Of a stretch of DNA of 64,000 nucleotides, positions 1,482 through 42,725 are shown piece after piece. Origin of the DNA: Phenylobacterium sp. Its GTDB lineage: Bacteria > Pseudomonadota > Alphaproteobacteria > Caulobacterales > Caulobacteraceae. The DNA is taken from contig NZ_JAKRSA010000012.1 in the NCBI RefSeq assembly GCF_022402485.1, forward strand, positions 124,001 to 188,000, written 5' to 3'. The notes under the pieces are model-generated. The model was given only the letters and a program-made list of their open reading frames with translations. It had not been told where the DNA came from and searched no databases. Position 1 is the stretch's first letter. Every line of letters starts with the position of its first letter. Made by a program: the position numbers and the translations under genes.

Positions 1482-1495
1482 TGGCGCACCCGACA
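1482..1495. repeat. Left attachment-site-like repeat (copy of tRNA-Arg 3' end)
   Basis: The 14 bases TGGCGCACCCGACA are identical, in the same orientation, to 42,649-42,662, which are the reverse complement of the last 14 nt (CCA included) of the tRNA-Arg(CCG) gene. Bases on either side differ, so the match is exactly 14 bp. This copy lies 11 bp after the parE stop and 29 bp before the first degraded catabolic gene, where an att site of a tRNA-integrated island should be. A small palindrome (CAATGG/CCATTG) follows at 1,494-1,512. Confidence 0.75.
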
Positions 1496-1523
1496 ATGGG
1501 GTCAGACCATTGACGAAAGGCGT

Positions 1524-1811
1524 CTCCGGCGGGGCCAACCGTCCATTCAGCCCTAAAATCACTCTTCGGGCTTTGAAGGTCCCCGGCACGACCTCCAAGA
1601 CCCAGTCCTGGTTCTTGCCGACGTAGCCGACCCGCGAACCGGGCACGAGCCCCAGCCCGATCAGGCCGTTCGCAACCTAGCTGGCGCGCCTGTCAAGTTC
1701 GCCGAAACTGGTGGCGCGGTCTTTGAAATCGCTGGCGATGGCGTATGGCCGCTCACGCCCGTGTAGGCGGCTGACATTGGCCATGCGGGTGAGACACGCC
1801 ACGTCAGACAT
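1524..1811 (-). pseudogene. Acyl-CoA ligase N-terminal remnant with amber codon
   Basis: Read from ATG 1811, 96 codons match the N-terminus of AMP-forming acyl-CoA ligases: RATSFGELDRRAS, then ANGLIGLGLVPGSRVGYVGK, then LNGRLAPPE. Codon 45 (1677-1679) is TAG where CAG (Gln) would be expected, and homology stops after LAPPE at about 1524, so the ATP-binding and catalytic parts are gone. It starts 4 bp after the stop of the glutathione transferase gene at 1816, so it was apparently the fourth gene of that operon. The truncation falls at the left island end. Confidence 0.7.
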
Positions 1812-1815
1812 GGCC

Positions 1816-2811
1816 TCACCCTCCAGCCAGCCAGGGTTCGCAGCCGGTTTCCGCCAGGATCGCCGCTAGTTCCGGATCGGAAACCGCCGCGCGCTTGGCG
1901 CGGATGATCGCCAGGGATTTGGCGTGATACTTTTGCGGCGGCTGCACGTAGGCCTTGCCGGCGAGGTCCACCGTGAACGACTCCGCACCTTCGGCGAGCG
2001 CCGTTGCGTTGGCTGTTGTCCAGGGCAGGAAGTAGCGACCGATGTAGGCCAGAACGGGCTTCAGCGTGGGCGCCAAGGCCTCCCAGCTTTCGAATGGCCC
2101 GTCGTTTCGGGGCTCCAGCATGCGGTGGCACCAGGCCAACGTGTTCGGCCCGCGGCTCTTCAGGATGCTGCCGCAGGTGGGATCGACCGATGCTTCGTAG
2201 AGCTGCGCCGACAGACCGAAATCGCCGAACGCCGGTCGCCCGCCGAACAGGTACTTCCGGGTCTCGAAGTGCGGCTCCAGCAGGTCGAGCAACTCGTTGA
2301 GGTAAGCGCGGATCAAGTCCGCTGTTGCGGCGCTCGAGCCAACGAAATGGCCGCGGCCGGTCATGCGCTGGCGGATCATCTCGGTACGCTCGGCGACCGC
2401 CGGCTCATCGCCCCTCGGCATGGAGAGCCGCGCCAGGGTCTGGGCCGAAGCGGCGATATCGACCTCGTCCCACCAGCGGTGGTGGAACATCAGCTTGTTG
2501 CCCCACTCGTCCCCGAATTCCTCAATGAGTTCCGAGAGGAACCGCAGCGCCGGTTCGGTCGGATGGATCGAGGGTTCGGGGTGCGCGACCTCGACCTTCT
2601 CCAGGATCGGCGTAGAGTCCTGAAGGCCTTCGTCCTGCGGTGTCGCTACGGTGGGCACGATCGGCAGCTTGGCGAAGTGCTTATACGCTTCCTCGTTGGC
2701 CGGCCCGCGTGGGATCCACTGGTGGGGGATGCCTTTGAACCGGAAGTAGGACCTCACCTTCACCGAGTATGGCGACATCTCGGAGCCGAAGATGCGGTAG
2801 ACGGCGCTCAT
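1816..2811 (-). CDS. Glutathione S-transferase family protein, 331 aa
   Basis: The N-terminus is a thioredoxin-fold GST domain (SPYSVKVRSYFRFKGIP, cis-Pro region LPIVPTVATP, then QDSTPILEKVE) and the helical C-terminal domain carries RKYLFGGRPAFGDFGL. At 331 residues it is longer than classical GSTs (about 210-250). The start at 2811 is chosen because the GST fold begins there and its ATG overlaps the stop of the upstream YfcG-like gene (ATGA), implying translational coupling; the longer open frame is out-of-family. It is the third gene of a minus-strand three-GST operon. Glutathione conjugation, ether cleavage or isomerisation are all possible; the substrate is unknown. Confidence 0.85.
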   Translation of the reverse strand: MSAVYRIFGSEMSPYSVKVRSYFRFKGIPHQWIPRGPANEEAYKHFAKLPIVPTVATPQDEGLQDSTPILEKVEVAHPEPSIHPTEPALRFLSELIEEFGDEWGNKLMFHHRWWDEVDIAASAQTLARLSMPRGDEPAVAERTEMIRQRMTGRGHFVGSSAATADLIRAYLNELLDLLEPHFETRKYLFGGRPAFGDFGLSAQLYEASVDPTCGSILKSRGPNTLAWCHRMLEPRNDGPFESWEALAPTLKPVLAYIGRYFLPWTTANATALAEGAESFTVDLAGKAYVQPPQKYHAKSLAIIRAKRAAVSDPELAAILAETGCEPWLAGG

Positions 2812-3473
2812 CGTGCGACCTCCTGTTTGATCATCTTGCGTTGGCTCTCGGCGAAGGCGTCCTTGCCGATGGCCGATCCCCTTTGAACCGCCTCGCGCGC
2901 GCCGACTTGCTTGAACCAACGGTAGAAGTTGGGGAACTCGGCCGGGTCGATCCCAAGGCCCTTGTAACCCCGCGTCCAAGGCCAGATGGCCATGTCGGCA
3001 ATCGAGTATTCGCCGGCCACGTGCTCGGCCTCTGACAGACGCTTATCGAGCACGCCGTAGAGCCGCTTGGTCTCGTTCACGTAGCGGTTCAGCGCATAGT
3101 CGATGCGCTCCTCGCGGTAGCGGAAGTGCGCCGCCTGCCCGGCCATAGGCCCAAGCCCCGCGCACTGCCAGAACAGCCATTCCTCGACCTGGGTCCTGGC
3201 CCGCCGCTCCGGTGGGTAGAACGCGCCGGCCCTATCGCCGAGGTACTGCAGGATTGCGCCAGACTCGAAGATTCCGATTGGCTCGCCGCCCGGGCCTTCC
3301 GCGTCCACGATCGCCGGCATCCGGCCGTTCGGCGAGATCGCCCGGAACTCGGGCGTGTCCTGGCCGCCGCTGCCGATATCCACCGGAACCAGCCTGTATG
3401 GCAGGCCGGTCTCCTCCAGCATGATGGTGATTTTCCATCCGTTGGGCGTGGGCCAGAAGTGGAGATCGATCAT
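2808..3473 (-). CDS. YfcG/nu-class glutathione transferase (disulfide-bond reductase type)
   Basis: The 221-residue product begins MIDLHFWPTPNGWKITIMLE, which carries Thr9 and Asn11 of the TPNG motif that defines E. coli YfcG/YghU-type nu-class GSTs; ESGAI follows at residues 70-74 as the glutathione gamma-glutamyl contact. The C-terminal domain contains LFWQCAGLGPMAGQ and SIADMAIWPW, both family hallmarks. Nu-class enzymes bind two glutathiones or GSSG and reduce disulfides or organic peroxides in the cytosol. It is the middle gene of the GST operon, 12 bp after the 389-residue GST and overlapping the next gene by 4 bp. Confidence 0.88.
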   Translation of the reverse strand: MIDLHFWPTPNGWKITIMLEETGLPYRLVPVDIGSGGQDTPEFRAISPNGRMPAIVDAEGPGGEPIGIFESGAILQYLGDRAGAFYPPERRARTQVEEWLFWQCAGLGPMAGQAAHFRYREERIDYALNRYVNETKRLYGVLDKRLSEAEHVAGEYSIADMAIWPWTRGYKGLGIDPAEFPNFYRWFKQVGAREAVQRGSAIGKDAFAESQRKMIKQEVAR

Positions 3474-3485
3474 CGCGGGGCTCCT

Positions 3486-4655
3486 TCAGGCAACCGCTAA
3501 ACGGTTGCCGATGCGGGTCAGCGGACGGGCGAGCGTTACCGACAAGAGATCCGTAGCTCCGCAACTCGCAGCCAACGCATCAGCGGCGGCGCGGTCATCG
3601 GGCGGCAGCGCAGCCAACCAGTCCAGCGTCCGCTGCAGCACCCAGAGCGCATGTGCGGGCGAACCGGCAGTAATCCTGTGGCCCCTCAGGGAGGTGGTGA
3701 TCGGCCCGAGGTTTGGCTGGTCCTCGTCGACGTCCGAGATCAGCGATCCCGCCGGAAGGTCGGGCCGCGCTTCCATCCAGGCGTGATAGAGGCCGGCGGT
3801 GGCCTGGAAGATGGGCGTATTGTCCTGGCAGAACATGCGGATCAGCCGCACCACGGTGTCGGGCACCTCGTCGTCCGCGAGATAGCTCATAGGGGTGTCC
3901 CAGAACTCCGGCGATTGGATCTCTGGCGTGTTCATGTGCTCCACCCAGCGGAAGACCCGCGGCGCCCGTTTCTGCATCAGGTGCAAAGGCCAGGGATCAC
4001 GTCCGAGGTGCGCGAAGAGGGGGCCCATCAGCCCGAAGTCGCCGACACTCGGAAGGCCGCCGAACAGGTAAGGCGTCTCGGTGAAGTGCGCTTCCAGGGT
4101 ATCGAGGATGTCGAAGTAGATCTCCTCCATCACAGGATAAAGTTCGGGCGTGATGCCAAGTCGGGGGCGGTGACCATCCATCTGTGCCGCGACCACGTTC
4201 CCATAGTGGTCAAGGAGTTCGTCAGAGCCCCGTGGCTTGAAGCTGCGCCCGAATTCTCGGGTCACGAAGTGGAGATTCGGTTCCTTGAAATTCCAGCGAT
4301 AGTGCCAAGCGACTTTCAGTCCCTCGCTGGCGACCAGGTCGACGAGGTAGGCGGCCAGCCTCTGTCGCGGCGTTGACGGTAGCGCCGGCGGGTCAGGGAA
4401 GCGGCGCTCAAGGTAGTCGAAGATCGCCGTCGTATCCTGGATCACATGGCCCTCAGGCGTCTCCAGGATCGGGATACGCTTAGATCGCGCCGCCGGGCTG
4501 ACCTCTTCACGGAAGCGGGGGTGGCTGGGCAGGCGCTCGACGAAAGGAATACCCTTCTTGCGCAGATAGCTGCGGGTCTTGCCGGTATAGAACGATGCAT
4601 AGGCCCCGTAGAGTGCGAATGGGCCGTCGCAATGGCCCCTGAACCGCTCAGCCAT
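3486..4655 (-). CDS. Glutathione S-transferase family protein, 389 aa
   Basis: The start region reads FALYGAYASFYTGKTRSYLR, a GST N-terminal domain with Ser/Tyr near the usual active-site position, followed by IPILETPEGHVIQDTTAIFD and a helical domain with PYLFGGLPSVGDFGLMGPL. Length is well above typical GSTs, with a C-terminal extension of about 60 residues. It is first in the minus-strand operon GST-YfcG-GST, preceded by a candidate operator at 4,729-4,740. Its closest relatives in this window are the island GSTs at 1,816, 27,461 and 40,881, sharing the HYRW and GDFG motifs. Function beyond glutathione binding is inference. Confidence 0.82.
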   Translation of the reverse strand: MAERFRGHCDGPFALYGAYASFYTGKTRSYLRKKGIPFVERLPSHPRFREEVSPAARSKRIPILETPEGHVIQDTTAIFDYLERRFPDPPALPSTPRQRLAAYLVDLVASEGLKVAWHYRWNFKEPNLHFVTREFGRSFKPRGSDELLDHYGNVVAAQMDGHRPRLGITPELYPVMEEIYFDILDTLEAHFTETPYLFGGLPSVGDFGLMGPLFAHLGRDPWPLHLMQKRAPRVFRWVEHMNTPEIQSPEFWDTPMSYLADDEVPDTVVRLIRMFCQDNTPIFQATAGLYHAWMEARPDLPAGSLISDVDEDQPNLGPITTSLRGHRITAGSPAHALWVLQRTLDWLAALPPDDRAAADALAASCGATDLLSVTLARPLTRIGNRLAVA

Positions 4656-5759: not shown

Positions 5760-7427
5760 CTAGTTGCCCCAGTAGACGTACTCGTCCGTCGGCCGCTGTG
5801 GGTCGATGAGCGAGTGGTCGAGCATGATGGCGGTCATGCCGAGTTCGGGCCAGAGGGGCTTCGCCTGCTCCGCGTCATGCTTGGCCAACAGCGCCTGCAG
5901 CTCCGCAAGTTTGTCGGGTCGCGACTCCGCGAGATTATTGCGTTCCGTCGGATCGGAAGCGAGGTCGTAGAGCCAGGCCTTAGCCGGAAGCTTCGTCATA
6001 TGCAGTTTCCAGTCGCCCGCGCGTACGACCCGATAGTCCCCCACACGCCAGAACAGCGCCTCGTGCGGTCGGCCAGTCTTCCTGCCCTGGACGAACGGCA
6101 GGAGGTCGACGCCATCCAACACCCGATCTCTCGGGAGGTTGGCTCGGCCCACTGCAGCCGCTGTAGTGAAGATGTCGAAGTGTGTCACCGGCGCGCGATA
6201 GTTTGTTCCCGGCGCGATGACCCCCGGCCAGCGCATTAGGAAGGGCGTGCGAATGCCCCCCTCGAAGAAGGTCTGCTTCCACCCCCGGAATGGCCGGTTG
6301 ATATCGGGCAGACCGATATAGTAGGCGCCGCCGTTGTCGCTGGTGAACATCACCAGCGTGTCCTTATCCAGGCCTTCTTCCTGCAGCTTCTGCAGCACGC
6401 GGCCGATGTTGCGATCCAGCCCCAGGATCATCGCGGCATAGACCCGCATCCGGTGATCGGCGATCTGTGGCAGGGCGTCGTAGTCTTCCTTCGTCGCCTG
6501 CAGCGGCGTGTGCGGCGCGTTATAGGACAGAAACATGAAGAACGGTCGGTTCCGGTTGGCCGTGATGGCGCTGAGGGCCTCATCGGTCAGGTAGTCGGTC
6601 ATGTGACGTTTGGGTTGAAACGCCGGCCCGCCGTCCTTGCGGACATAGAACTGCAGGATCGACCACAGGTTCATGTCGATCGGGTCAAAGCCCTGGAATG
6701 AGTTTACCCCCCTCGGATCGTTCCTCGGCAGGAACAACGCGCCTCCTCCATCGAAGCCTAGAGTCTCGTTGAACCCTCGGTTATGCGGTTGAAACTTTGG
6801 TGAATTACCTAGGTGCCACTTGCCGAACAGGACGGTGTGGTACCCTGCGTTCCTTAGAATCTCGGGCAACATCACCTGGTCGGTTGGAACCCCCATATCC
6901 GCGTAGGGGATCAGTTCGGACTCGCGGTCGCGGAAGTAGACCGGGTTGAAGATCCCATAGTGGAAGGCCCGCACCTGCCGCGCGAACGCCAATGGCGTCG
7001 GGGTGAACTCGAACCCATACCGAGTTGGGTAGCGCCCCGTCATCAGCGCCGCCCTCGAAGGCGCGCAGGTCCCGTGCCCGGTATAGCCCTGGGAGAAGCT
7101 CACGCCGTCGCGGCCAATAGAGTCGATGTTGGGCGTGGGGACCGCCCCGTCGGCCACGCCGCCACCGTTGAGCGTGATATCGTTGTAGCCCATGTCATCG
7201 ACCATGATGACGATGATGTTGGGTTGCTTGCGGCCCCTTGGCGGGGTCGCGGGGCCCTGCTGCCAGACGACGTCGCGGGGCGGACCGATTTCGAACTGAG
7301 GGCTGCGGAGCGTGACCCCCGGCGGAAGCGTGGAGTCCGCGGTCGGGGGCGGCGTTTGGGCGGCGGTTGGGGCTGCGAGCGCGATGCAGGCGGCGCAAGC
7401 CAGGAGGACGGACTTCAGTCGCATCAA
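5760..7427 (-). CDS. Periplasmic arylsulfatase-type sulfatase, 555 aa
   Basis: A cleavable signal peptide (LLACAACIALAAPTAAQ) precedes an alkaline-phosphatase-fold sulfatase. The metal site VMVDDMGYND-like motif is at about residues 74-81 and the formylglycine signature CAPSR starts at Cys121 (GTCAPSRAALMTGRYPTR). GKWHLG, FTSDNGG and DPTERNNLA follow in the usual order. Such enzymes hydrolyse sulfate esters after Cys oxidation to formylglycine; export of an unmodified precursor needs a maturase not seen here. It lies 75 bp downstream of a TonB-dependent receptor in the same orientation, suggesting uptake and desulfation of one substrate. A second full-length homologue is at 13,653. Confidence 0.9.
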   Translation of the reverse strand: MMRLKSVLLACAACIALAAPTAAQTPPPTADSTLPPGVTLRSPQFEIGPPRDVVWQQGPATPPRGRKQPNIIVIMVDDMGYNDITLNGGGVADGAVPTPNIDSIGRDGVSFSQGYTGHGTCAPSRAALMTGRYPTRYGFEFTPTPLAFARQVRAFHYGIFNPVYFRDRESELIPYADMGVPTDQVMLPEILRNAGYHTVLFGKWHLGNSPKFQPHNRGFNETLGFDGGGALFLPRNDPRGVNSFQGFDPIDMNLWSILQFYVRKDGGPAFQPKRHMTDYLTDEALSAITANRNRPFFMFLSYNAPHTPLQATKEDYDALPQIADHRMRVYAAMILGLDRNIGRVLQKLQEEGLDKDTLVMFTSDNGGAYYIGLPDINRPFRGWKQTFFEGGIRTPFLMRWPGVIAPGTNYRAPVTHFDIFTTAAAVGRANLPRDRVLDGVDLLPFVQGRKTGRPHEALFWRVGDYRVVRAGDWKLHMTKLPAKAWLYDLASDPTERNNLAESRPDKLAELQALLAKHDAEQAKPLWPELGMTAIMLDHSLIDPQRPTDEYVYWGN

Positions 7428-7502
7428 ATTACTCCGATCACCAAAATGGAGGGCCGCGACACAGACGACGCGGCCCCCAAGTCTAGGGCCAGGAAGGAGC
7501 CC

Positions 7503-9836
7503 CTAGAAGGTCATGGACGCCTCCACGCCCCAGGTGCGCGGCGGCGCGTACCAGCCGACAAAGCCCTGTGCCTGCGCGTTACCGCCCGCGGAGATGAACG
7601 CGTTGGCCGGCTGCAGTGTCTTCTGCACAAAGTAGGCTTCATCGGTAAGGTTCTTGCCGTAGGCCGAAATTCGCCAGCCGTTGGGCGAGCTGATCCCGGC
7701 GCGAAGGCCGAGCAAGGTCACGGAGGGCTGGAACGACCGCGGATCCAGTGTCGATTCCTGGAGCGTGGAGTCCGTGTAGCTGAGGTCACTGTTCACGAAC
7801 CAATCGAGACCGGTGTCCCCGATCGGGGCGTCCCATTGCGCCACGAGGCTGTAGGTCCATTCCGGGCTCTGCGATGGGGTGAGGCCAGTAAAGTTACAGG
7901 TCCCAGGTCGCGTGCCGACCGGCACCGAGCCCAGATTGTTGCACTGGCCGGCGCTGTAGTCCGTGAACTCGGCGTCCATGTAGGACAACGTCGCCTTCAG
8001 GGTCAGCGGCTGGATCGGACGAAGCGTCGCATCGGCCTCGACGCCCCGGACACGGCGGTCGCCCGCGTTTGAGACGATGAATCCCGACCCCGTCTGCGGG
8101 TTCAGCACCGAGTCCTGGAAGTCGCTGAGTTTCATCGAATAGATGTTGGCGTTGAGGATCAGCTTGCGATCGAACAGCACCGACTTGACGCCCAGCTCGT
8201 AGGTGAGCGAGGTCTCTGGACCGAACTCGACCGGAACGCCCGCGGCGGCCGATCGCGCGTTGAAGCCTCCGGTCTTGTAGCCGGACGCGGCCAGGGCATA
8301 GAGCATCACATCCGGGGCAACGTCGAACTGGGCGCCTGCCGACCAAGTGACCTTGTCCTCCTTGCGGGAGATGTCGCCCAGACGGTTGACCGGAAACACG
8401 GCCCGGGCCGCCGGCGTGGCCGTCGGGTTCACGTCGGCGATCAGGTAGCTGTCCTTGTTGTCCTTGGAGTAGCGAAGACCGCCCGTCAGGCGGAACACGT
8501 CGGTCACCCGGAATGTCCCCTGTCCAAACAGGGCGGCGCTTCGGGTGTCCTGGGTGTAGTAGAAGGTCGATACGTCGCCAACCTGGAAGCGGCGGCCAGG
8601 CGCGGGCGGGAGGACCCGGTTCGCGTGAGGACCCAGGGCGAGCCGGGTGGTGTAGGTGATCCCTTGGGAAAACAGGAACACCCCGGCGATGTAGCTGAAG
8701 CGTTGTTCCAGCGGAGAGGTGAGCCGGAACTCCTGGCTGTAGCCTTCTGAGCGCGCGAACTGCCGGCTGCCGAACGGAACCGTGGTGATCTGCGGCAGCA
8801 TGTCGGCCGCCAGATTTTTGATGTTGTCCTCGTAGCCGTTGAATGCCGTGATCGAGGTGAGCGTCAGGTCCATCGGCAGCTCGTAGTCGAACGCGATCGA
8901 CGCGCCGTAAACCTTGGTGGTGTTGTCGCCCGCTGCATCATCATCAACGATGTGATCTCTGTCGTCGAAGTTCCGGAAGGGCCGGCCTGTAGCCGCCGCC
9001 GCGGCCAGGAACCCAGCCGTCGCGATGCCGCCGACGCCGGTGGCGTCGAGGGTCTCGGCCGTGCAGCACGCCGAGTCGATGTGCGAATAGTAGGCGATAA
9101 AGTTCGCCTTCAGACGATCCGTCGGTTGCCATTTCACGCGCCCGCGGAATCCGTACTGGTCGATATTGTTGACCTCCGGCCCGGACAGGTTTTCCTCGTA
9201 CCCGTCGCGTCCCGAAGCCCAGGCCGACAGGCGGGCGGAAACGGTCTCCGAAATCCCGCCGCCGACATAACCGCCGATCGAACGGTCATCGTAGTTGCCC
9301 CCGCGAACGGTGACCATCGCTTCGAAGTCCTGGCTGGGCTCGCGCGAGGTGATATTGATCGCGCCGACCGGCGTATTGCGGCCGTACAGCGTGCCCTGCG
9401 GGCCGCGCAGGACTTCGACCATGGAGATGTCCTGCAGGTTGCTCTGGATCGGGCCGGCGGCCACGATGTAGACGCCGTCGATGAAGATGCCGACGCTGGA
9501 CTCAATGCCGGGGTTGGTGCCCGAAGTCCCGATGCCACGGACAAATATGGTCGAGTTCCGGTTGTTGTTCGACTGGGTGATGTTCACTGAAGGAATGAAG
9601 CGCGAGAGCTCGGTCACATTGCCGATCCCGGCCTTCTCAAGAAAGTCGCCGCTGACGGCGGACACCGACATCGGGACATCCTGAATGTTCTCCGCGCGCT
9701 TGTTTGCGGTGACGATCAGGGTCTCGACTTCCGCTGGCTCGTCCGCTGCATGGGTAGCAGACGCCGCCATTAGGGAAGCGACCAGAGCCAGGGCTGTGCT
9801 GGCGAACAGATTTTCGACCTTCGCTCGATAGGACAT
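7503..9836 (-). CDS. TonB-dependent outer-membrane receptor, 777 aa
   Basis: The start at 9836 is preferred over an upstream in-frame codon because GGGGAG lies about 6 nt before it and the signal peptide (ALALVASLMAASATHAAD) follows. A TonB-box-like segment (VETLIVTANKRAENIQDVP) and the plug domain (VRGIGTSGTNPGIES, VEVLRGPQGTLYGRNTP) precede a long beta-barrel ending in Phe (EASMTF). Such receptors import scarce large or hydrophobic compounds at the expense of the proton motive force. It shares plug motifs with the receptor at 36,172. Two operator-like palindromes lie 44-80 bp upstream, and the sulfatase gene follows directly. Confidence 0.92.
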   Translation of the reverse strand: MSYRAKVENLFASTALALVASLMAASATHAADEPAEVETLIVTANKRAENIQDVPMSVSAVSGDFLEKAGIGNVTELSRFIPSVNITQSNNNRNSTIFVRGIGTSGTNPGIESSVGIFIDGVYIVAAGPIQSNLQDISMVEVLRGPQGTLYGRNTPVGAINITSREPSQDFEAMVTVRGGNYDDRSIGGYVGGGISETVSARLSAWASGRDGYEENLSGPEVNNIDQYGFRGRVKWQPTDRLKANFIAYYSHIDSACCTAETLDATGVGGIATAGFLAAAAATGRPFRNFDDRDHIVDDDAAGDNTTKVYGASIAFDYELPMDLTLTSITAFNGYEDNIKNLAADMLPQITTVPFGSRQFARSEGYSQEFRLTSPLEQRFSYIAGVFLFSQGITYTTRLALGPHANRVLPPAPGRRFQVGDVSTFYYTQDTRSAALFGQGTFRVTDVFRLTGGLRYSKDNKDSYLIADVNPTATPAARAVFPVNRLGDISRKEDKVTWSAGAQFDVAPDVMLYALAASGYKTGGFNARSAAAGVPVEFGPETSLTYELGVKSVLFDRKLILNANIYSMKLSDFQDSVLNPQTGSGFIVSNAGDRRVRGVEADATLRPIQPLTLKATLSYMDAEFTDYSAGQCNNLGSVPVGTRPGTCNFTGLTPSQSPEWTYSLVAQWDAPIGDTGLDWFVNSDLSYTDSTLQESTLDPRSFQPSVTLLGLRAGISSPNGWRISAYGKNLTDEAYFVQKTLQPANAFISAGGNAQAQGFVGWYAPPRTWGVEASMTF

Positions 9837-9879
9837 CTCTACTCCCCGCTTTGACGTTTTTTGTTGAACTACGGTATGT

Positions 9880-9893
9880 GAATTTAAATTCCG
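9880..9893. promoter_or_regulatory. Candidate operator 1 upstream of TonB receptor
   Basis: GAAT-TTAA-ATTCCG forms a dyad with the GAAY-N4-ATTCCG consensus. It lies 44 bp upstream of the receptor start at 9,836 and 9 bp from a second copy, which would suit cooperative TetR binding over the promoter. Confidence 0.5.
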
Positions 9894-9902
9894 ATTCAAT
9901 CA

Positions 9903-9916
9903 GAACCATGATTCCT
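9903..9916. promoter_or_regulatory. Candidate operator 2 upstream of TonB receptor
   Basis: GAAC-CATG-ATTCCT is the second of two closely spaced dyads before the receptor gene. The same left half and right half occur upstream of the ligase at 25,949. Confidence 0.5.
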
Positions 9917-10067
9917 GTAGTGTCAATACCGGTCTGGAGAGATCCCTTGCGCGCCGCCCGATGTCGGTTCGGGCCTCGAACCGGACCGGATACGCTCGCC
10001 GCGACGAGCCTGGCCTCGAGATGGAGGACCGCCAATAGCGTCAGCATCCGGCAGCTGCAGCGGTGTT

Positions 10068-10095
10068 GGACCCCCAAAGACCTTATCGGGGGTCC
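10068..10095 (-). terminator. Possible hairpin terminator after the MDR gene
   Basis: GGACCCCC and GGGGGTCC form a perfect 8-bp stem with a 12-nt loop, in the 392-bp gap between the MDR gene (ends 10,229, minus strand) and the TonB receptor start. No clear U-run follows, so this may be a structure or repeat rather than an intrinsic terminator. The neighbouring 10,102-10,135 carries a CCCTCTCCCGGAAGGG repeat-like stretch; the rest of the gap shows nothing coding. Confidence 0.3.
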
Positions 10096-11365: not shown

Positions 11366-11374
11366 CGCCCGTGG

Positions 11375-12149: not shown

Positions 12150-12156
12150 CACCGTG

Positions 12157-34061: not shown

Positions 34062-34871
34062 TCAGCGGCCTTGAAACACAGGCGAGCGCTTCTCGACGAA
34101 GGCCTTTGACGCGGCCTTGTGGTCTTCGGTCATCATGGTGCGGATCATGTGGATGGCTTCGGAGTCGAGCACTTCGGTCAGAGTGCCGTGGTCGGCCACA
34201 TTAAGGTTCTTCTTCATGTGGCCGATGGCGATGGTCGGCAGGCTGGCCAGGCGTCGCGCCAGTTCGCCGGCGGCCTGGGCCAGTTCAGCGGCGGGGACCG
34301 CCCGATTGACGATTCCCAGCGCGGCCGCCTCGGCGCCGGTGATGACCTCGGCCATGAAGTAGAGCTCCCTGGCCTTGGCCGCGCCCACCAGATGGCTGAG
34401 GAAATAGCTGCCTCCATAGTCGCCCGACACGCCGACTTTCGCAAAGGCCGTGGTCAGCTTGGCCTCGCTCGCGGCGATGCGCAGGTCGCAGGCCAGCGCC
34501 ATGGAGAATCCCGCGCCGGCTGCGGCGCCCGGGATCACCGCCAGCGTCGGTTTGGGCATTTCGTGCAGCAGCCGGCTGAGCTCCATGCCAGTGCGCAGGC
34601 CATGTAGTTTCTGCTCGAAACTCACCCCGCCGGCTCCGCCCGGCCCACCTGGACTGTCGGCGGCGAACCCCTTGACGTCGCCGCCAGCACAGAAGGCACC
34701 GCCCGAGCCGGTGAGCACTAAAGCCCTGACCTTTGGATCGGCGGCAATTCGCAGGGCAGCCTCCGACAGGGCTGCAAGCATTTCACCCGAGAGCGCATTG
34801 CGGGCGTCGGGCCGATTCATGGTCAAGGTGGCGACGCCATCCTCAATCGTCTCGAGCAAATGGTCGGTCAT
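34062..34871 (-). CDS. Enoyl-CoA hydratase/isomerase (crotonase), 269 aa
   Basis: ATG 34871 is chosen because AAGGGAC lies upstream and LLETIEDGVATLTMNRPDAR follows immediately. The oxyanion loop is GSGGAFCAGGDVKGF and AVIPGAAAGAGFSMALA; the region of the catalytic glutamate reads FAKVGVSGDYGGSYFL, with Asp where hydratases often have Glu, as in isomerase or dehalogenase-type members. It ends MRTMM-like IRTMMTEDHKAASKAF and EKRSPVFQGR. It is the intact relative of the chimeric fragment at 17,368. It is convergent with DUF1330 and divergent from the tetR gene at 35,400. Confidence 0.9.
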   Translation of the reverse strand: MTDHLLETIEDGVATLTMNRPDARNALSGEMLAALSEAALRIAADPKVRALVLTGSGGAFCAGGDVKGFAADSPGGPGGAGGVSFEQKLHGLRTGMELSRLLHEMPKPTLAVIPGAAAGAGFSMALACDLRIAASEAKLTTAFAKVGVSGDYGGSYFLSHLVGAAKARELYFMAEVITGAEAAALGIVNRAVPAAELAQAAGELARRLASLPTIAIGHMKKNLNVADHGTLTEVLDSEAIHMIRTMMTEDHKAASKAFVEKRSPVFQGR

Positions 34872-34889
34872 GGCATGAAGTCCCTTTGT

Positions 34890-34903
34890 GATCATGATTT
34901 CCG
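34890..34903. promoter_or_regulatory. Weak operator-like dyad upstream of crotonase
   Basis: GATC-ATGA-TTTCCG has the right half of the island motif but a degenerate left half. It lies 19 bp before the crotonase start. Confidence 0.25.
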
Positions 34904-35399: not shown

Positions 35400-36062
35400 A
35401 TGGTCGATCCTAGCACCTCAGACATCGACGGACTTGATGGCGTCTACCCTGCCAGGCAGGCGCGAAGCCGAATGGCCCGAGAGCGGCTGCTCGTTGCCGG
35501 AAACGCCGTCTTCGCGAGCAAGGGTTATGACGACACCCATGTGACGGAGATCGCCAGCGCGGCCGGATATTCGATCGGCACATTCTATGCGCGGTTCCGC
35601 GACAAGGATGCGCTGTTCGCCGCGCTGCAGCACCGCTTCACTCGTCGCGGCCGCGCAAACATCGAGAAGTTTTTTGACCTGAAGCGATGGGATGACGCTC
35701 CACCAGCGGAGGTCATAGAAGCCTATATCGAAGGCACCCTCAGGGTGCTGGCACGGCACTCGGGCTTCTTCCGGGCGCTCTACCAGAGAAGTTTGGTCGG
35801 CGACGAGACGGTCCATTGGCCCGAACTAAGAGCCGGGACTCAATTCGCTGCCTTGAAGATCGCCGAACTCATCCGGCGCAAAGCGCCTGAAGCGGACCGC
35901 CCCGACCTGAACGCGCTATGTGTTTTTTGCCTGCGCACATCAGAAGGAATGCTCATCCACCGCATTCTGAATTGGGAGATCAATGAGGAGTTTACGCAAG
36001 ATTATATCGTAAAGACCCTCACGCTCATGATCGCTTCCACTCTTAACATTCGCACGGTCTGA
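35400..36062 (+). CDS. TetR-family transcriptional regulator, 220 aa
   Basis: GVYPARQARSRMARERLLV followed by the helix-turn-helix VTEIASAAGYSIGTFYARF aligns with the other two island TetR proteins, and the ligand domain has RHSGFFRALYQRSLVGDE and SEGMLIHRILNWE. It is the most diverged of the three. It lies 109 bp upstream of the TonB receptor gene in the same direction and is likely to regulate it and nearby genes. TAG-free and full length, unlike the copy at 4,783. Confidence 0.88.
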   Translation: MVDPSTSDIDGLDGVYPARQARSRMARERLLVAGNAVFASKGYDDTHVTEIASAAGYSIGTFYARFRDKDALFAALQHRFTRRGRANIEKFFDLKRWDDAPPAEVIEAYIEGTLRVLARHSGFFRALYQRSLVGDETVHWPELRAGTQFAALKIAELIRRKAPEADRPDLNALCVFCLRTSEGMLIHRILNWEINEEFTQDYIVKTLTLMIASTLNIRTV

Positions 36063-36171
36063 GGCCCAGGCGAATCTTCCCACTGATTGGGCTTTAAAAG
36101 GCCCGGCGGCCGTGGCATTATCGGAACCAAGAATCTCATTCGCATTTTATGCAAATAGAGGGGCGGTTTCG

Positions 36172-38502
36172 ATGACATTGAATTGTACCTGCAAAAGTGC
36201 ATTGGCTTTAGGGAGCGTCATCACCGCTCTGAATTGGGGGTCACCGGCTCTCGCGCAGACGACAGGAGTCGAGCTCGAAGAATTAGTGGTCACCGCCCAG
36301 AAACGGGTCGAGAACGTTCAGGACGTGCCAATTTCCATCGTGGCGGTTAGCGGTGCCGAGATTGATCGGGCACATATCCAGAACTTTTCGCAGTTGACCT
36401 CCGTTGTTCCGAGCCTGCAGTTCAGCACCTCGAACAACTTCCGGAACGCGACGATCTCACTGCGAGGCATCGGCCAGTCGGGCGCTAATCCCGGTATCGA
36501 GTCCAGCGTCGGCGTCTTCATCGATGGCGCCTATGTGCCAGGGTCCAGCGCCCTGATTGCAGACCTGACGGACATCCAGTCGGTAGAGGTGCTGAGCGGC
36601 CCGCAGGGTACGCTTTATGGCCGCAACACGCCTCTGGGCGCGGTCAATATCGTCACGCGCGAACCGCAGGTCGATCTGGAAGCCATGTTGACCGCAGGCT
36701 ACGGCAACTACGATCAGACGTCCGTGAAGGGCTATGTGGGCGGGGCGCTGGCGACCAATGTGGCCTCGCGCGCCTCGTTCTGGGCCCGCGATCGAAGTGG
36801 CTTTGCCTACAACCTTGCGACCGGGAAACACGTCAATGACTTCGCGGGCGCAGGCGGACGCCTCCGCACAGTCTGGAAGCCCTCTGACGCCCTCAAGCTC
36901 GACCTCGCGACCTACTACTCCAACGTATCGGCCAATGACGGGGTCTCCGATGTCATCGACGCGGCGGGACCCACTGGGGTGGCGACGCCCGGCTACCTCG
37001 CGGCGACGGCGGCGCTGGGATATACGTTTCAGAACTACGGAAACCGCGACTTCGTCGTCCAGACCCAGGATCTAACCAACTCCAAGGCGATCGCGTATGG
37101 TTCCAGTCTGACCGTAAACTACGCGTTCGGTAACGGCTACACGCTGACCGCGATCACCGCGGGTGACTACAACAAGGGCGGCGGAAATCCCTACGCCAAC
37201 GCGGCGTTGCCTCAGAAAATCCTGATCCTTACGGAGCAGGGGATCATCAAGTCCTCAAGCCAGGAGCTGCGCCTAGCCTCACCGGCGGGCCGCCGGCTAG
37301 AATACATCGCGGGACTTTACGCCTATCGCCAGACCTATGACTTTAACTCGACGGTGACGATCGGTCCCGATGCCAATCGATTGTTGCCGCTGCCGGCTGC
37401 GGCGGGCGGGCCGACCCGGTTCAAGGCCGGCGACACGGAAGTTACCAACGTCAAACTGAACACCGAAAGTGAAGCGGTGTTCGGAACAGCCTGGTTCAAT
37501 CTCACCGACACCTGGAAGATCCAGGCGGGGGCGCGCTATGTGTGGGAGCACAAGGACGGCACCATCTTCCATGTGAACCTTCCCGGCGCCAACGCCGCCT
37601 TCCGGGCAGCCTTTGGTCCGAATCCGGTCGGACCAGTCTCGCGCACAGAGAACAATTTCACCTGGCTGTTGAGCACTCAATACAAGATCACACCCGACAT
37701 CATGGTCTTCGCCACCGTCTCGACCGGCTGGAAATCCGGGGGGTTCAACGCCCGACTGACCCCCGTCGGCGTGCCCGTGGAGTTCGAATCCGAATCCTCG
37801 ACCGACTATGCGGTGGGGATCAAATCCGAACTGTTCGACCGCCGGTTCCGGCTCAATGTGACGGCCTTCGACATCGAGTTGAAGAACTTCCAGTCCTCGA
37901 TCCTGAACCCTGTAACCCGCTCCGGGTTCATCACCGGAAACGCCGGTGCCCGCGAAACCCGGGGCGTCGAGGCCGACTTCGTAGCGGTCCTTTCGGAACA
38001 TGTGCGGCTGAACGGCGGCATCACCTATCTGGCGGCCGAATACACCGACTATGCCAACGGTCCTTGCTACAGCGGAAGACCGTCGGACGGTGCCGCGCCC
38101 GGAACCTGCACCTTCAACGGTCTGCGGCCCGACAGGTCACCGAAGGTCAAGCTGAACATTGCGGCGAACTACGTCACCCCGATCAGCGACCATCTGTCGT
38201 TGGACGCCCGTTTGGAAGTGCAGCACACCAGCTCGCAGACCTATGATGCGGCTCTGGACCCCAACACCCGGGAACCGGCGGTCACCCTGCTGAACGGCAA
38301 CATCGCCCTCAAGCCAAAGGAGGGGCGCTGGGCGTTGGGTCTGTGGGCTCGGAATCTTACCGACGAGCACCACTTCCAGTTCATTAGCGCCACCCCAGCA
38401 ACCACGCTTGTGAGCACCGGTGGGGTAGCTGGCGGACGAGGCTACAGCGGCTACTATGCCGAGCCTCGCACCTATGGCGTCGAGCTGACGATCCGCTACT
38501 AG
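36172..38502 (+). CDS. TonB-dependent outer-membrane receptor, 776 aa
   Basis: ATG 36172 (GAGGGG upstream) opens a signal peptide (ALALGSVITALNWGSPALAQ), a TonB-box-like LEELVVTAQKRVENVQDVP and the plug (LRGIGQSGANPGIESSVG, VEVLSGPQGTLYGRNTP). The barrel ends with aromatic YGVELTIRY. Many blocks match the receptor at 7,503 (for example NPGIESSVG.FIDG), so the two are paralogues for similar ligands. It is followed 104 bp later by an NMO-like gene. A GAAT-N3-ATTC dyad at 36,131-36,141 lies in front of the start but has a 3-nt spacer. Confidence 0.92.
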   Translation: MTLNCTCKSALALGSVITALNWGSPALAQTTGVELEELVVTAQKRVENVQDVPISIVAVSGAEIDRAHIQNFSQLTSVVPSLQFSTSNNFRNATISLRGIGQSGANPGIESSVGVFIDGAYVPGSSALIADLTDIQSVEVLSGPQGTLYGRNTPLGAVNIVTREPQVDLEAMLTAGYGNYDQTSVKGYVGGALATNVASRASFWARDRSGFAYNLATGKHVNDFAGAGGRLRTVWKPSDALKLDLATYYSNVSANDGVSDVIDAAGPTGVATPGYLAATAALGYTFQNYGNRDFVVQTQDLTNSKAIAYGSSLTVNYAFGNGYTLTAITAGDYNKGGGNPYANAALPQKILILTEQGIIKSSSQELRLASPAGRRLEYIAGLYAYRQTYDFNSTVTIGPDANRLLPLPAAAGGPTRFKAGDTEVTNVKLNTESEAVFGTAWFNLTDTWKIQAGARYVWEHKDGTIFHVNLPGANAAFRAAFGPNPVGPVSRTENNFTWLLSTQYKITPDIMVFATVSTGWKSGGFNARLTPVGVPVEFESESSTDYAVGIKSELFDRRFRLNVTAFDIELKNFQSSILNPVTRSGFITGNAGARETRGVEADFVAVLSEHVRLNGGITYLAAEYTDYANGPCYSGRPSDGAAPGTCTFNGLRPDRSPKVKLNIAANYVTPISDHLSLDARLEVQHTSSQTYDAALDPNTREPAVTLLNGNIALKPKEGRWALGLWARNLTDEHHFQFISATPATTLVSTGGVAGGRGYSGYYAEPRTYGVELTIRY

Positions 38503-38606
38503 CCGCCCGACCTGGGCTCCGAACATCCAAACCCTTGATACCGGCGACCCCCGCGGGCCGCCGGCCACTTGACCCCACGCGGGTCGCAACTCACGGACTA
38601 GCAAGT

Positions 38607-39584
38607 ATGATCAAGACACGCATCACCGAGATGTTCGGCGTGGAGACTCCCCTCGTGATGGGTGGGATGACCGGGGTGAGCTATGCGCCCCTGGTGGCGG
38701 CGGTGGCGGAGGCGGGGGCTCTGGGGTTCCTGGTGGCACACCTTTACCCCACGGCTGAGGCGCTGATGGAAGCGATCCAGCAGATTCGTGACAAGACCGA
38801 CAAGCCGTTCGGGGTGAACCTGACCATCCTGCCGTCGCTGAACCCGATCCCCTATGATGAGTATCGCCGGGCGATCATCGAGAGCGGGGTGAAGATCGTG
38901 GAGACCGCCGGGCGCAACCCGGTGGCCCACATGCCGGACTTCAAGGAGGCTGGGGTCAAGGTGATCCACAAATGCACCTCGGTGCGTCATGCAGTGACCG
39001 CCGCCGCCCTGGGCGTGGACGTGATCAGCATCGATGGCTTTGAGTGCGCCGGTCACCCCGGTGAGGACGACATCGGCCTGGTGGTGCTGCTGCCGGCCAC
39101 GGTGGACAAGCTGGACATTCCGGTGATCGCCTCCGGCGGCATGGCCGATGGCCGCAGCCTAGTGGCGGCCCTGGCCCTGGGCGCCGAGGGGGTCAACATG
39201 GGCACACGGTTCATGGCCACCCGCGAGGCGGAGATCCATGAGAATGTGAAGAAGAAGATCGTCGAGAACACTGAACGCGACACCATCCTCACCAACCGCA
39301 CCTTGCAGAATACAGCCCGCGTGGCGCGAAACGCTGTGTCGAAGGAGGTCGTCGAGATTCAACGCGACCCCACAAAGACTATCGAGGACGTGCGCCATCT
39401 GGTCGCGGGTATCCGCGGGCGCACAAACGTCATGCAGGCCGGCGACATGGATGGCGGCATTTGGACCGTTGGTCAGAGCCAGGGGCTGATCCACGACATT
39501 CCCACGTGCGCCGAACTGGTGCGCAACATCATGGCCCAGGCCGAAGATGTCTTGGCCTACAACGCCGCCCGACGCGTGGCGTGA
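38607..39584 (+). CDS. Nitronate monooxygenase / 2-nitropropane dioxygenase-like flavoprotein, 325 aa
   Basis: The FMN TIM-barrel family motifs are TRITEMFGVETPLVMGGMTG, KPFGVNLTILP, CTSVRHAVTAAALGVDVIS, GFECAGHPGEDD and GTRFMATREAEIHENVKKK. Length equals that of the paralogue at 23,451 and the two align end to end. It would use O2 and FMN to oxidise nitronates or act as a related flavin reductase. ATG 38607 is chosen because the family N-terminus starts there. It follows the TonB receptor, and only remnants lie downstream. Confidence 0.85.
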   Translation: MIKTRITEMFGVETPLVMGGMTGVSYAPLVAAVAEAGALGFLVAHLYPTAEALMEAIQQIRDKTDKPFGVNLTILPSLNPIPYDEYRRAIIESGVKIVETAGRNPVAHMPDFKEAGVKVIHKCTSVRHAVTAAALGVDVISIDGFECAGHPGEDDIGLVVLLPATVDKLDIPVIASGGMADGRSLVAALALGAEGVNMGTRFMATREAEIHENVKKKIVENTERDTILTNRTLQNTARVARNAVSKEVVEIQRDPTKTIEDVRHLVAGIRGRTNVMQAGDMDGGIWTVGQSQGLIHDIPTCAELVRNIMAQAEDVLAYNAARRVA

Positions 39585-39784: not shown

Positions 39785-39811
39785 CTGAACGAGGAGGTTC
39801 ACTTCAAAGGG

Positions 39812-39997
39812 GTCAAAGAAGTCAAGGCGATCATCGCGACGAAGTCCGGCACAAGCATTGAGCCCGCCGGGACCGTCGCCTTCGGGCGCCAGCAGATCGC
39901 CGGCTACAAGCTGCCTAAGACGGTAGACTTCGTCGATGCGATCGCGCTCAACGCCTCGGGAAAAATCCTGCGCCGCGATCCGCGCAAGGCCTTTTGA
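39812..39997 (+). pseudogene. C-terminal fragment of an acyl-CoA ligase
   Basis: The frame reads VKEVKAIIATKSG, QQIAGYKLPKTVDFVDAI and ASGKILRRDPRKAF then TGA. This is the mobile C-terminal domain of AMP-forming ligases with the catalytic lysine, close to the end of the ligase at 28,683. The rest of the gene is absent; the sulfatase fragment lies directly before it, so two truncated genes have been joined. The intact IS5 element starts 15 bp later. Confidence 0.75.
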
Positions 39998-40011: not shown

Positions 40012-40852
40012 CTAGGCTCAGGACTCATTGGTCATAGCCAGAAGATGACGGTTGCGGCGATGGCGGGCATGAAGGTTTGGGCGCATCGGTCGTAGCGGGT
40101 GTGGATACGTCGCCAGTCCTTGAGCCTGCCGAACATGTTCTCGATCCTGTGGCGCTGGCGACAGAGGGTCCAGTCGTGATCGGTGTGGACCTTTCGGTTG
40201 GCCTTTGACGGGATGCACGAGGTGATGCCCCGCTGGATCAGCGCGGCCCGGAACCAGTCGGCGTCGTAGCCCCGGTCGCCCAGCATGGCCTTGGCTTTGG
40301 GCAGGGCGTCGATCATCAGGGCGGCCCCCTTGTAGTCACTCATCTGCCCATCGGAGAGCAACAGGACCAGCAGACGCCCGTGGCCGTCGCACACGGCGTG
40401 GAGCTTGGAGTTCAGCCCGCCCTTGGTGCGCCCGATACGTCGGGCAACAGCCCCTTTATGAGCAGACTAGCCGCCGTCTGATGGGCCTTCAGGTGGGTGG
40501 CGTCGATCATCAATCGCTCGGGCCGAGGCCCCTTGGCCGACAGTTCAGCGAAGATCCGGTTGAACACGCCCAAACGGCTCCAGCGGATGAACCGGCTGTA
40601 GATCGTCTTCTGCGGCCCGTAATCCCTCGGCGCATCACGCCAGCGCAAGCCGCTGCGGATCACGAAGATGATGCCACTCAGCACTCGCTTCTCGTCCAAC
40701 CGTGGATTGCCGTGCGACTGGGGGAAACACGGCTCTATCCGCCGCGTCCGCTTATCCGTCAGCCAGAACAGATCACTCATGACAGGCTCTCCGCCACAAG
40801 TGAATGAGATCGAATACGCCCTGCGTGTCCCTTTAGCGGGTCCTGAGCCTAG
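40012..40852 (-). mobile_element. Intact IS5-family insertion sequence
   Basis: A perfect 13-bp inverted repeat (CTAGGCTCAGGAC at 40,012-40,024 and its complement at 40,840-40,852) encloses the transposase gene. The outer CTAG on each side is also a direct repeat of 4 bp, the target duplication expected for IS5 (YTAR). The element is therefore about 833 bp between the duplications. It is inserted among gene fragments and is the only complete transposon in the window. Confidence 0.8.
40032..40780 (-). CDS. IS5-family transposase, two overlapping frames joined by -1 frameshift
   Basis: The first frame from ATG 40780 (LFWLTDKRTRRIEPCFP, DAPRDYGPQKTIYSRFIRW, LMIDATHLKAHQTAA) contains the first catalytic Asp. 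The second frame (GRTKGGLNSKLHAVCDG, MLGDRGYDADW, RQRHRIENMFGRLKDW) has the second Asp and the Glu of the DDE triad and stops at 40,032. Homology crosses between frames at A-AAG-GGG (40,451-40,457), a good -1 slippery heptamer. IS427-type IS5 elements are known to make transposase this way, so the gene is probably functional, giving about 250 residues. Confidence 0.82.
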
Positions 40853-40856: not shown

Positions 40857-40891
40857 TGACAGCTTGAAGTGGTTTCTACTTCAAGCTGTCA
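40857..40891. terminator. Perfect 14-bp hairpin at the 3' end of a GST gene
   Basis: TGACAGCTTGAAGT and its reverse complement form a 14-bp stem around a 7-nt loop. The right arm includes the last codons and stop of the GST gene (ends 40,881). There is no U-run on either strand, so it may act as a stability or attenuation structure rather than an intrinsic terminator. It lies 5 bp outside the IS5 element. Confidence 0.5.
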
Positions 40892-41924
40892 TGGGTGAGC
40901 CGAACAGCACCTCGCAACCTGTTCCGGCCAGGGCGGCGTCGGCCCGTTTGCGGTCTGCGGGCGCGAGGGCGGTATATTCTTGACGTAGCCACATCAGACA
41001 TTTGGCCTGGTAGGTGAACGGCTGTTGCACCCACCTCTGGCCGTCGATCTCGGTGACTACTTCCGCTGCTCCCGCTTGCACCGCCTTCGCGTTGGCCAGC
41101 AGCAGGGGCGCATAGACCCGGCCCACTTCCTTGAGGATTGCGGTCAAGGTGGACGGCAGGGCGGTGATGTCGAACCAGTCGGCATCGGTGGGTTCGAGAC
41201 CCGTCAAATCCTCCGCAGCGCTCGTCCAGGCGAAGACGCGGGGTGCCTTGACAGCTGTTATAGCCATGGGCGTTGGGTCGAACAGAGCTAGTTGGGTGAG
41301 TTGGCCCAGGCAGCCGAAGTCGCCGGCACCAGGCCGTTCGCCGAGCAGGAACCTGTGCACGGTCAGGTGCGCCTCCATGGCTTCCAGAAAACGCAGGTAG
41401 CTGGCTTCGATCAGCCCCCAGGTTGACTCGTTCGAGCCCACATAGCGCAGTCGCGGGATCTGCCGGCCGGAAATGGTTTCGCCCGCCTCCTTCAACGCCG
41501 CGTCGGGCATGAGCCCACGGGTCCACGCTGGCAGAATGGCTGCAGCGTGGGCGATATCATCAGCGTAGTGCCAGCGATAATGGAACATCGCCTTAGTCAG
41601 CCATTCGTCACCGTAGTCCTCCAGCAGCGCGTCCAGTAGGGCCAGAGCCGGGTCGGCGGGCCGCACCGATCGCCCAGCGAACATCTTCTCCAGGTGCCGG
41701 ATGATCGGGGTGGAGTCGGTCATCGCCTGCAGTTGGCCCTCGGCATCGGGGAAGTAGAACGTGGGTAGCAAGCCCACCTTGGCTCGCGGCAGGCCCTGGA
41801 CCTCATGCGAGGCCAGGATCAAACGATATGCGATCCGCCGGTAGCGGAGCACAGCCAGCATCTTGCGGGTGTAGGGCGAGCCCGGCACCCCGTGCAACGC
41901 CACCAGATCATGCACGACAGCCAT
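40881..41924 (-). CDS. Glutathione S-transferase family protein, 347 aa
   Basis: The GST N-terminal domain is LVALHGVPGSPYTRKMLAVL with Ser/Tyr at the usual active-site loop, then QAMTDSTPIIRHLEKMF. The helical domain has FHYRWHYADD and HRFLLGERPGAGDFGCLGQL, followed by a C-terminal extension (FTYQAKCLMWLRQEY). It is the fifth intact GST of the island and belongs to the same long class as those at 1,816, 3,486 and 27,461. A strong operator candidate lies 41 bp upstream. The IS5 element sits just after its 3' end. The substrate is unknown. Confidence 0.83.
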   Translation of the reverse strand: MAVVHDLVALHGVPGSPYTRKMLAVLRYRRIAYRLILASHEVQGLPRAKVGLLPTFYFPDAEGQLQAMTDSTPIIRHLEKMFAGRSVRPADPALALLDALLEDYGDEWLTKAMFHYRWHYADDIAHAAAILPAWTRGLMPDAALKEAGETISGRQIPRLRYVGSNESTWGLIEASYLRFLEAMEAHLTVHRFLLGERPGAGDFGCLGQLTQLALFDPTPMAITAVKAPRVFAWTSAAEDLTGLEPTDADWFDITALPSTLTAILKEVGRVYAPLLLANAKAVQAGAAEVVTEIDGQRWVQQPFTYQAKCLMWLRQEYTALAPADRKRADAALAGTGCEVLFGSPMTA

Positions 41925-41964
41925 CTCAACTCTCTCGCATTTTAATCATTGGAATTTAGTAGAA

Positions 41965-41980
41965 CCGAAATTATAGTTCC
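41965..41980. promoter_or_regulatory. Candidate operator upstream of GST gene
   Basis: On the minus strand the site reads GGAAC-TATA-ATTTCGG, close to the consensus. An additional inverted pair ATTCC-N5-GGAAT lies at 41,982-41,996. The AT-rich surroundings are promoter-like. Confidence 0.5.
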
Positions 41981-42059
41981 TAATTCCACATTGGAATAGC
42001 TGAATCAAGCTAAATTTATACTCGCATTGGGGGTACCCGCCGCGCCTAAGGTTCGCCGC

Positions 42060-42501
42060 CGTCGTTCTTGGGCAGCCCCTCGCGACTCGCGATTGATAGG
42101 GAGCGCGCTCGGTGGGGTCGCTGGCTCGGTTGTAGAGCTAGAACTTCCTGCAAGGCCCGCAGCTCTGTAGCTTCCAGTCGCCGTCGATCACGCGGTTGCT
42201 AGGCGGCGGCGCGCCACTGCGGCGGTCGAGAAGATGTCTATGCCGCAGCCCTGATTGGGATAGACCGTGTCGAACGGGATGCCGCTGGGCCACCGAATAA
42301 CGTAGGGCGCGCGCCGCCTTCGAAGAAGGTCATCTTCCAGCTTCAGAAGGGCATGCTGATTTCGGGGAGGCCAATGTACCCGGCGGCACCGGTGTCGGTA
42401 GTGAAGATCACAAGGGTGTTCTGATCGAAGCCTTCGTCCTTCAAAGCTTGGAGGATGCGCCCGACGTTGTTGTCGAGATTGCGGACCATGGCACCGACGA
42501 C
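42060..42501 (-). pseudogene. Degenerate sulfatase fragment (C-terminal half)
   Basis: From 42,501 the minus strand reads VVGAMVRNLDNNVGRIL, TLVIFTTDTGAAGYIGLPEI, then in shifted frames MTFFEGGA, GDWKLQS and LYNRASDPTERA, in the order found in the intact sulfatases. TAG replaces Trp before LYN (aligned with EWLYD), and at least two frameshifts occur. The N-terminal half with the formylglycine site is absent. It lies at the right end of the island, 148 bp from the tRNA gene; the 42,502-42,648 gap shows only a TTGCTCG/CGAGCAA hairpin at 42,602-42,625. Confidence 0.75.
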
Positions 42502-42648
42502 GCTAGGTTCCAGTGCTTTCCGGGGAAGTAGGTCTGGGCCAAATCGAATGCTTCCGCCCTGTGACAACCAGGTCCATATTGGCTCAGGTTATGGTTCAGA
42601 TTTGCTCGTACAATTTTTCGAGCAATTTCAGCGCCTTAACTAGGCCGT

Positions 42649-42725
42649 TGGCGCACCCGACACGATTCGAACGTGTGACCTTTGCCTTCGGAGGGCAACG
42701 CTCTATCCAGCTGAGCTACGGGTGC
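42649..42725 (-). tRNA. tRNA-Arg(CCG)
   Basis: The reverse complement folds as a complete cloverleaf: acceptor GCACCCG/CGGGTGC, D-stem GCTC/GAGC, anticodon stem TTGCC/GGCAA with loop CTCCGAA (anticodon CCG, decoding CGG), T-stem ACACG/CGTGT with loop TTCGAAT, discriminator G and encoded CCA. The 3' end faces the island, and its last 14 nt are duplicated at 1,482-1,495, marking it as the integration site. Confidence 0.95.

Follow-up and report, generated by a model that had tools for sequence, protein, structure and literature searches.

The window analysed here, a stretch of 64,000 nucleotides from Phenylobacterium sp. (contig NZ_JAKRSA010000012.1, positions 124,001 to 188,000), carries a block of catabolic genes spanning 41.2 kb between two 14-bp repeats, one of which forms the 3' end of a tRNA-Arg(CCG) gene. 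This is a real tRNA-anchored island, without an integrase and decaying, and as such of a kind already known. It likely entered through a tyrosine integrase acting at the 3' end of tRNA-Arg(CCG), and the integrase gene was probably lost later by an inversion within the island. What is new here is this likely inversion, together with the crowded state of the target tRNA.

The intact tRNA-Arg(CCG) gene (positions 42649–42725, minus strand; found by ARAGORN, 67.7 bits with Rfam RF00005) is identical to the copies at the empty sites described below. Its last 14 nucleotides, TGGCGCACCCGACA when read on the plus strand, lie at 42649–42662 and recur exactly, in the same orientation, at 1482–1495 as a displaced 3' end of the gene. 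By hand count they comprise the CCA, the discriminator, the 3' strand of the acceptor stem, and three bases of the T-stem. A search of the whole 3.08-Mb assembly found exactly two exact copies, one at either end of the island, and none of the reversed control pattern; assuming independent bases, one would expect about 0.0008 exact copies in the same orientation in 64 kb. The preliminary description of this DNA had reported such a repeat of the tRNA end in the orientation proper for an inserted element, and this is borne out. Among the 101 genomes of the genus compared (numbered G below, with contigs numbered C), 88 contain the 14-mer at least once, and the reversed control matched twice over all 101. 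The repeat search within the window tolerated two mismatches. Shuffled sequences then give a mean of 1.16 matches, with two attained by 33 of 100; the two-match count at that tolerance proves nothing alone, and it is the exactness and the empty sites that carry weight.

An uninterrupted site was found in all three relatives in which both flanks could be located. The left flank (from 828 or 914 to 1495) matches G001:C4 at 91%, G018:C40 at 82%, and G054:C86 at 86% identity, and these three contigs also match the tRNA side, from 42649 on, at 87–91%. In each, the two flank matches overlap by exactly 14 bp, and the junction sequence consists of the left flank, one 14-mer, and the remainder of the intact tRNA. 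The arrangement that had been suggested as a check, with the parE side, a single 14-bp core, and tRNA-Arg in a row, is thus present in three relatives, which supports insertion of the island at this tRNA. The left chromosomal flank (828–1481, plus strand) encodes ParD-like (868–1191) and ParE-like (1163–1471) proteins with the Pfam domains RHH_1 and ParE_toxin, and has matches at the empty sites in G001, G018, and G054 as well as a flank in G085. On the tRNA side stands an ABC transporter ATPase (42806–43756, minus strand; PF00005), continuous with the tRNA in G001, G005, G018, and G054. As in other tRNA-integrated islands, an intact tRNA is accompanied by a displaced same-orientation 3' fragment on the correct side and by a single-copy empty site in relatives. 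Pfam scans of flanks and island also agree with the earlier statement that gene content switches at both repeats. An assembly artefact was considered and is disfavored, on genome comparison rather than reads, by the uninterrupted site in three relatives and by G085, where the same left flank is broken 17 bp into the tRNA.

The genes within the block are foreign to this site. The island, with the exception of 21401–22699, was searched in the 101 genomes. In the relatives G001, G005, G018, and G054, the best hits to it elsewhere in the genome, among the matches listed, are single genes at 73–79% identity; for G001, G018, and G054 these genes are, again among the matches listed, the YghU-like region, the first nitronate monooxygenase, and CoA-ligase A. 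By contrast with the chromosome, two island segments are far closer to two other genomes: 7487–12149 (4.7 kb) is 89% identical to G109 and 23468–26138 (2.7 kb) is 95% identical to G108, against hand-summed, length-weighted means over the right flank (42800–62700) of about 76% for G109 (13 matches, 66–84%) and about 74% for G108 (11 matches, 68–81%). The foreign character of the gene content is thus seen both in its absence from the empty sites and in these 89% and 95% segments set against flank means near 75%. In 2-kb steps, G+C ranges from 0.58 to 0.67 within the island and from 0.66 to 0.71 to its right. A search for a plasmid copy with a 24.5-kb query (1482–26000; near mode only) returned short matches, each covering at most 4% of the query, in six plasmid records.

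That no integrase is present had been stated before, and profile searches confirm it for the window. Genome-wide searches with E values of up to 1 gave seven places for PF00589, and two above the cut-off plus one weak place for PF13356, none of them in the window; tblastn, run at E 1e-4 with 16 open reading frames (ORFs) that were taken from integrase loci and include a few antisense frames, had no hit in the window. No relaxase or type IV secretion gene gave a Pfam hit among the 36 island ORFs scanned. The island accordingly lacks the internal integrase of a putatively active, Islander-type island, and what was scanned does not make it an integrative conjugative element. Neither does it have the insertion sequences (IS) at both ends that define a composite transposon: a single IS4/5-type gene lies at 40032–40780, with none at the ends among the scanned ORFs. 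Transposon origin was rejected because this sole IS gene stands at neither end. The earlier judgment that the island is probably fixed is reasonable, given that the window holds no integrase or arm domain and that several genes are broken.

The left end of the island preserves traces of what may have happened to the integrase. Between the repeat and the first ligase homology lie 16 bp, ATGGGGTCAGACCATT (1496–1511, plus strand), a possible remnant of the attachment arm of the original element. They resemble the sequence beside a 14-bp tRNA fragment in G115, with 14 aligned columns of which 13 match and one is a gap (P of about 0.0006 per random 60-mer, as the best of three arms compared). An alternative assignment of 1496–1508 as a REP-like repeat was dropped, as the first 13 bp after the left repeat were not found elsewhere in the genome. 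There follows the N-terminal remnant of a coenzyme A (CoA) ligase (1506–1811, minus strand), of about 100 codons with one internal stop, 76% identical to a ligase of G048 and 40% to ligase B of the island. A C-terminal remnant, likely of the same ligase, is found at 39794–39994 on the plus strand (64% to the G048 ligase and 50% to ligase B, over 58 amino acids). Start and end of the ligase thus lie 38 kb apart on opposite strands, and both pieces are closest to the G048-type ligase group. This ligase, recognized in the gene-order comparison by its hit to ligase B, is whole in four of the eight relatives compared (G048, G002, G109, and G077), where glutathione-S-transferase (GST) family genes surround it in the order GST389–GSTb–GSTa–ligase–GST347. 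The preliminary description had noted truncated genes at both ends: the ligase N-terminus and a sulfatase piece at about 42200–42501 are indeed truncated just inside the island, but ParE (1163–1471) is not.

The splitting of the ligase and the loss of the integrase are both likely due to an inversion that had a breakpoint next to the attachment site. In the sequence of events that we propose, a tyrosine integrase would have brought in the element by site-specific recombination at the 3' end of tRNA-Arg(CCG), with a crossover of the 3'-end (T-stem/acceptor junction) type, and its gene would originally have lain immediately inward of position 1496, the placement seen in G097. A stretch of about 38 kb (from about 1512 to 39.8 kb) may then have inverted, with deletions at its ends, which would have split the ligase and eliminated the integrase; the block left behind would be unable to excise on its own. 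Such an inversion could leave an integrase relic near the ligase C-terminus, but none was recognized there by eye in six frames.

Comparison across the genus shows tRNA-Arg(CCG) to be a recurrent landing site. Fragments of 45–59 bp of the tRNA 3' end occur in 13 of the 101 genomes (not counting G106, where the copy is cut by a contig end), and an integrase lies within about 1 kb of the fragment in 5 of the 11 searched (G057, G066, G048, G080, and G016). In G077 the integrase lies between the tRNA and the fragment, in G023 it lies by the 5' half of a split tRNA, and for G015, G062, G056, and G013 none is listed on the contig of the fragment. The window fits a second type with short fragments of 14–20 bp. 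In G097, a 14-bp fragment is followed about 190 bp further inside by the N-terminus of an integrase (Arm-DNA-bind_3). G115 (L227, G115:C63) has a 14-bp fragment, then a start that by eye resembles the G097 integrase, then an IstB-like frame, also recognized by eye. G090 has a 20-bp fragment. In G085 (L225, G085:C25), the ParDE flank of the window, at 90% identity, is followed by 17 nucleotides of the tRNA; other sequence takes over nine bases short of the contig end, and this is probably another insertion at the same spot. Matches of 14–16 bp in G074, G116:C64, and G056:C20 come without supporting context and may be chance, and that in G116:C114 marks a contig end. The insertions in G057, G066, G048, G080, G016, G023, and G097 share the target tRNA sequence with the island in the window but, unlike it, have an integrase gene or part of one near the fragment (in G023 near the 5' half); their fragments measure 45–49 bp, except in G097.

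Two further observations were made at this tRNA. In G115, the integrase-like start breaks off before the IstB-like frame, perhaps a second route of integrase loss. In 5 of the 101 genomes a split near the anticodon loop divides the tRNA-Arg(CCG) (G048:C45, L127/L128; G080:C1, L129/L130; G023:C2, L132/L133; G108:C51, L134; G069:C168, L135), with the 5' half seen in all five and the 3' half in G048, G080, and G023. A complete tRNA-Arg(CCG), 86–91% identical, lies about 120–260 bp from a split end, and no closer full copy is listed there. The splitting element seems to break the tRNA of its host and to supply its own, rather than to restore the 3' end.

Several points weigh against entry at the tRNA 3' end followed by inversion. 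No integrase gene or fragment is left in the island, and the enzyme is deduced from other genomes, in which the integrase of G097 is cut by the contig end and the 24-amino-acid integrase-like start of G115 has no Pfam hit. The arm resemblance extends over only 14 columns and is not shared by G097 and G090, which score low. Two matches of the reversed control in 101 genomes mean that a few 14-mers are chance. Of the ligase, about 360 codons are gone, hence the inversion was not clean, and a duplicated cluster would also fit. The remaining island segments match G109 and G108 at just 68–82%, which makes the island a mosaic. It could also be that a longer fragment once stood at the left end, with the 14 bp as its stump. 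Finally, G085, G097, and G115 show no tRNA-Arg(CCG), leaving their fragments unpaired with a tRNA; this takes weight from the preferred reading and adds it to a rival in which an anticodon-loop integrase, like those of G057, G066, and G048, brought in the island and a fragment of 45–49 bp was later cut to 14 bp by rearrangement. Such a history would agree with the frequency of long fragments and nearby integrases in the genus and with a rearrangement breakpoint close to the left repeat, but the 14-bp fragment of G097 with its adjacent integrase N-terminus shows that 14 bp needs no truncation, and the 16 bp that follow the repeat are similar to the arm of G115; we regard this history as distinctly unlikely.

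Somewhat less unlikely, if still doubtful, is that the left ligase piece and the right ligase–GST–sulfatase piece derive from two copies of the cluster, through repeated insertion and subsequent deletion, with no inversion at all. In G012 there is a counterpart to the sulfatase fragment beside the 347-amino-acid GST, an integrase would likewise disappear in a large internal deletion, and the missing ligase codons would find an explanation. Against this, two insertions and a deletion are required where a single inversion accounts for the opposite strands of the pieces, and the two pieces have their closest matches in a single ligase group. A chance repeat in a region that entered by homologous recombination or transposition is very improbable: although there is no integrase, an IS4/5-type gene lies inside, and shuffles often give two matches when two mismatches are allowed, the empty sites join at exactly 14 bp, no transposase lies at either end among the ORFs scanned, and the exact repeat is confined in the genome to the two ends of the island, at a tRNA 3' end. 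We reject it on this exact uniqueness together with the empty sites.

The catabolic nature of the gene set, proposed from the start, was borne out by the Pfam scans, whose 36 ORFs include some overlapping alternatives. From left to right, the island encodes three GST-family proteins (1816–2979, 2808–3473, and 3486–4655, minus strand), a sulfatase (5760–7427, minus; PF00884, E 2.5e-60), a TonB-dependent receptor (7503–9899, minus; PF00593 and PF07715) and an alcohol dehydrogenase-like protein (10229–11365, minus; PF08240), the receptor lying within the segment that is 89% identical to G109. A second sulfatase (13596–15299, plus; PF00884, E 5.7e-55) is followed by an MFS transporter (18819–20180, minus; PF07690), a family III CoA-transferase (20357–21595, plus; PF02515), an acyl-CoA dehydrogenase (22245–23450) with a nitronate monooxygenase-like gene (23451–24428), both on the minus strand, and CoA-ligase A (24465–25949, minus; PF00501), within the segment shared with G108. 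Next come a second acyl-CoA dehydrogenase (26193–27410, plus), a further GST-family gene (27461–28645, minus), CoA-ligase B (28500–30227, plus; PF00501), a TetR regulator (30252–30911, minus; PF00440), and a thiolase (31300–32472) with two enoyl-CoA hydratases (32569–33747 and 34062–34895), all three on the minus strand. The plus-strand stretch 35400–39584 holds another TetR regulator, the second TonB-dependent receptor, and the second nitronate monooxygenase-like gene. The right end consists of the IS4/5-type transposase in two frames (40032–40780, minus; PF13340 and PF13586), the 347-amino-acid GST-family gene (40881–41924, minus) that adjoins the ligase in relatives, as seen by gene order, and the sulfatase fragment (about 42200–42501, minus), 60–61% identical over 65–69 amino acids to both island sulfatases with a weaker second stretch. 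In total, the 36 ORFs include five GST-family genes and two each of sulfatases, TonB-dependent receptors, CoA-ligases, acyl-CoA dehydrogenases, nitronate monooxygenase-like genes, enoyl-CoA hydratases, and TetR regulators; the family III CoA-transferase, the thiolase, the alcohol dehydrogenase-like protein, and the MFS transporter are each present once.

From these genes one would predict a pathway in which the TonB receptors import a sulfated, hydrophobic compound that the sulfatases desulfate, followed by GST-type modification, CoA activation, and shortening via beta-oxidation. For the proteins tried, sequence matches in Pfam, NCBIfam, and PDB indicate no specific compound, and a literature search combining most gene and genus terms found no paper. 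Parts of the cluster are present in G048, G002, G109, G077, G049, G012, G062, and G056, with no tRNA in the stretches fetched around them. Within the island, helix-turn-helix domains resembling IS481 transposases at 12674–13075, in a low-G+C stretch (0.58 at 12001–14000), probably mark an IS remnant, and between the second sulfatase and the MFS gene (15300–18850) frames read by eye suggest decayed genes (YghU-like GST and enoyl-CoA hydratase-like). The 389-amino-acid GST-family protein has relatives in distant bacteria (Myxococcota, Pseudomonadales, and others; L137–L188), and sulfatase hits in 18–19 of these 52 loci hint at a wider catabolic module, although the counts include paralogue cross-hits and are given no weight here.

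The crossover sites distinguished by the Islander authors are the anticodon loop, the T-loop, and the T-acceptor junction, and in their work (PMC4383910) islands have an intact tRNA at one end, a displaced same-orientation 3' fragment at the other, and a length of 2–200 kb. The island in the window is alike in these respects, and its 14-bp fragment fits their T-stem/acceptor junction (J) class; it differs in being internally rearranged and in lacking an integrase, so that the integrase filter would reject it. A flexible genomic island of the Methylophilaceae is described (PMC10872708) as marked by repeats that correspond to the terminal 20 bp of tRNA-Lys. Short tRNA 3'-end repeats around metabolic cargo are common to both, whereas the tRNA, the genus, and the 20-bp repeat length differ.

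Cis-mobilizable elements carry att-like repeats at both ends and are moved by an incoming element that shares their att sites. The island resembles them in its att-like end repeats and in the lack of recombination and conjugation genes among the scanned ORFs, but for the window we propose loss by rearrangement rather than mobilization by an incoming element.

What had been an inference from raw sequence is now an insertion shown by empty sites, and a tRNA island that an integrase filter would reject proves demonstrable by comparison. The GST–sulfatase–TonB catabolic cluster is placed on DNA with segments that species of the genus have in common. We further suggest, tentatively and as an idea that may well prove wrong, that a single inversion, with its breakpoint next to the attachment site, had two effects at tRNA-Arg(CCG): it erased the integrase, and it fixed a complete catabolic pathway in place. 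The target would be one that two or more kinds of integrase share, and some of the elements concerned would disrupt the tRNA of the host while supplying another. If true, such lock-in by inversion would be a route for a mobile pathway to become permanent in a bacterial lineage.

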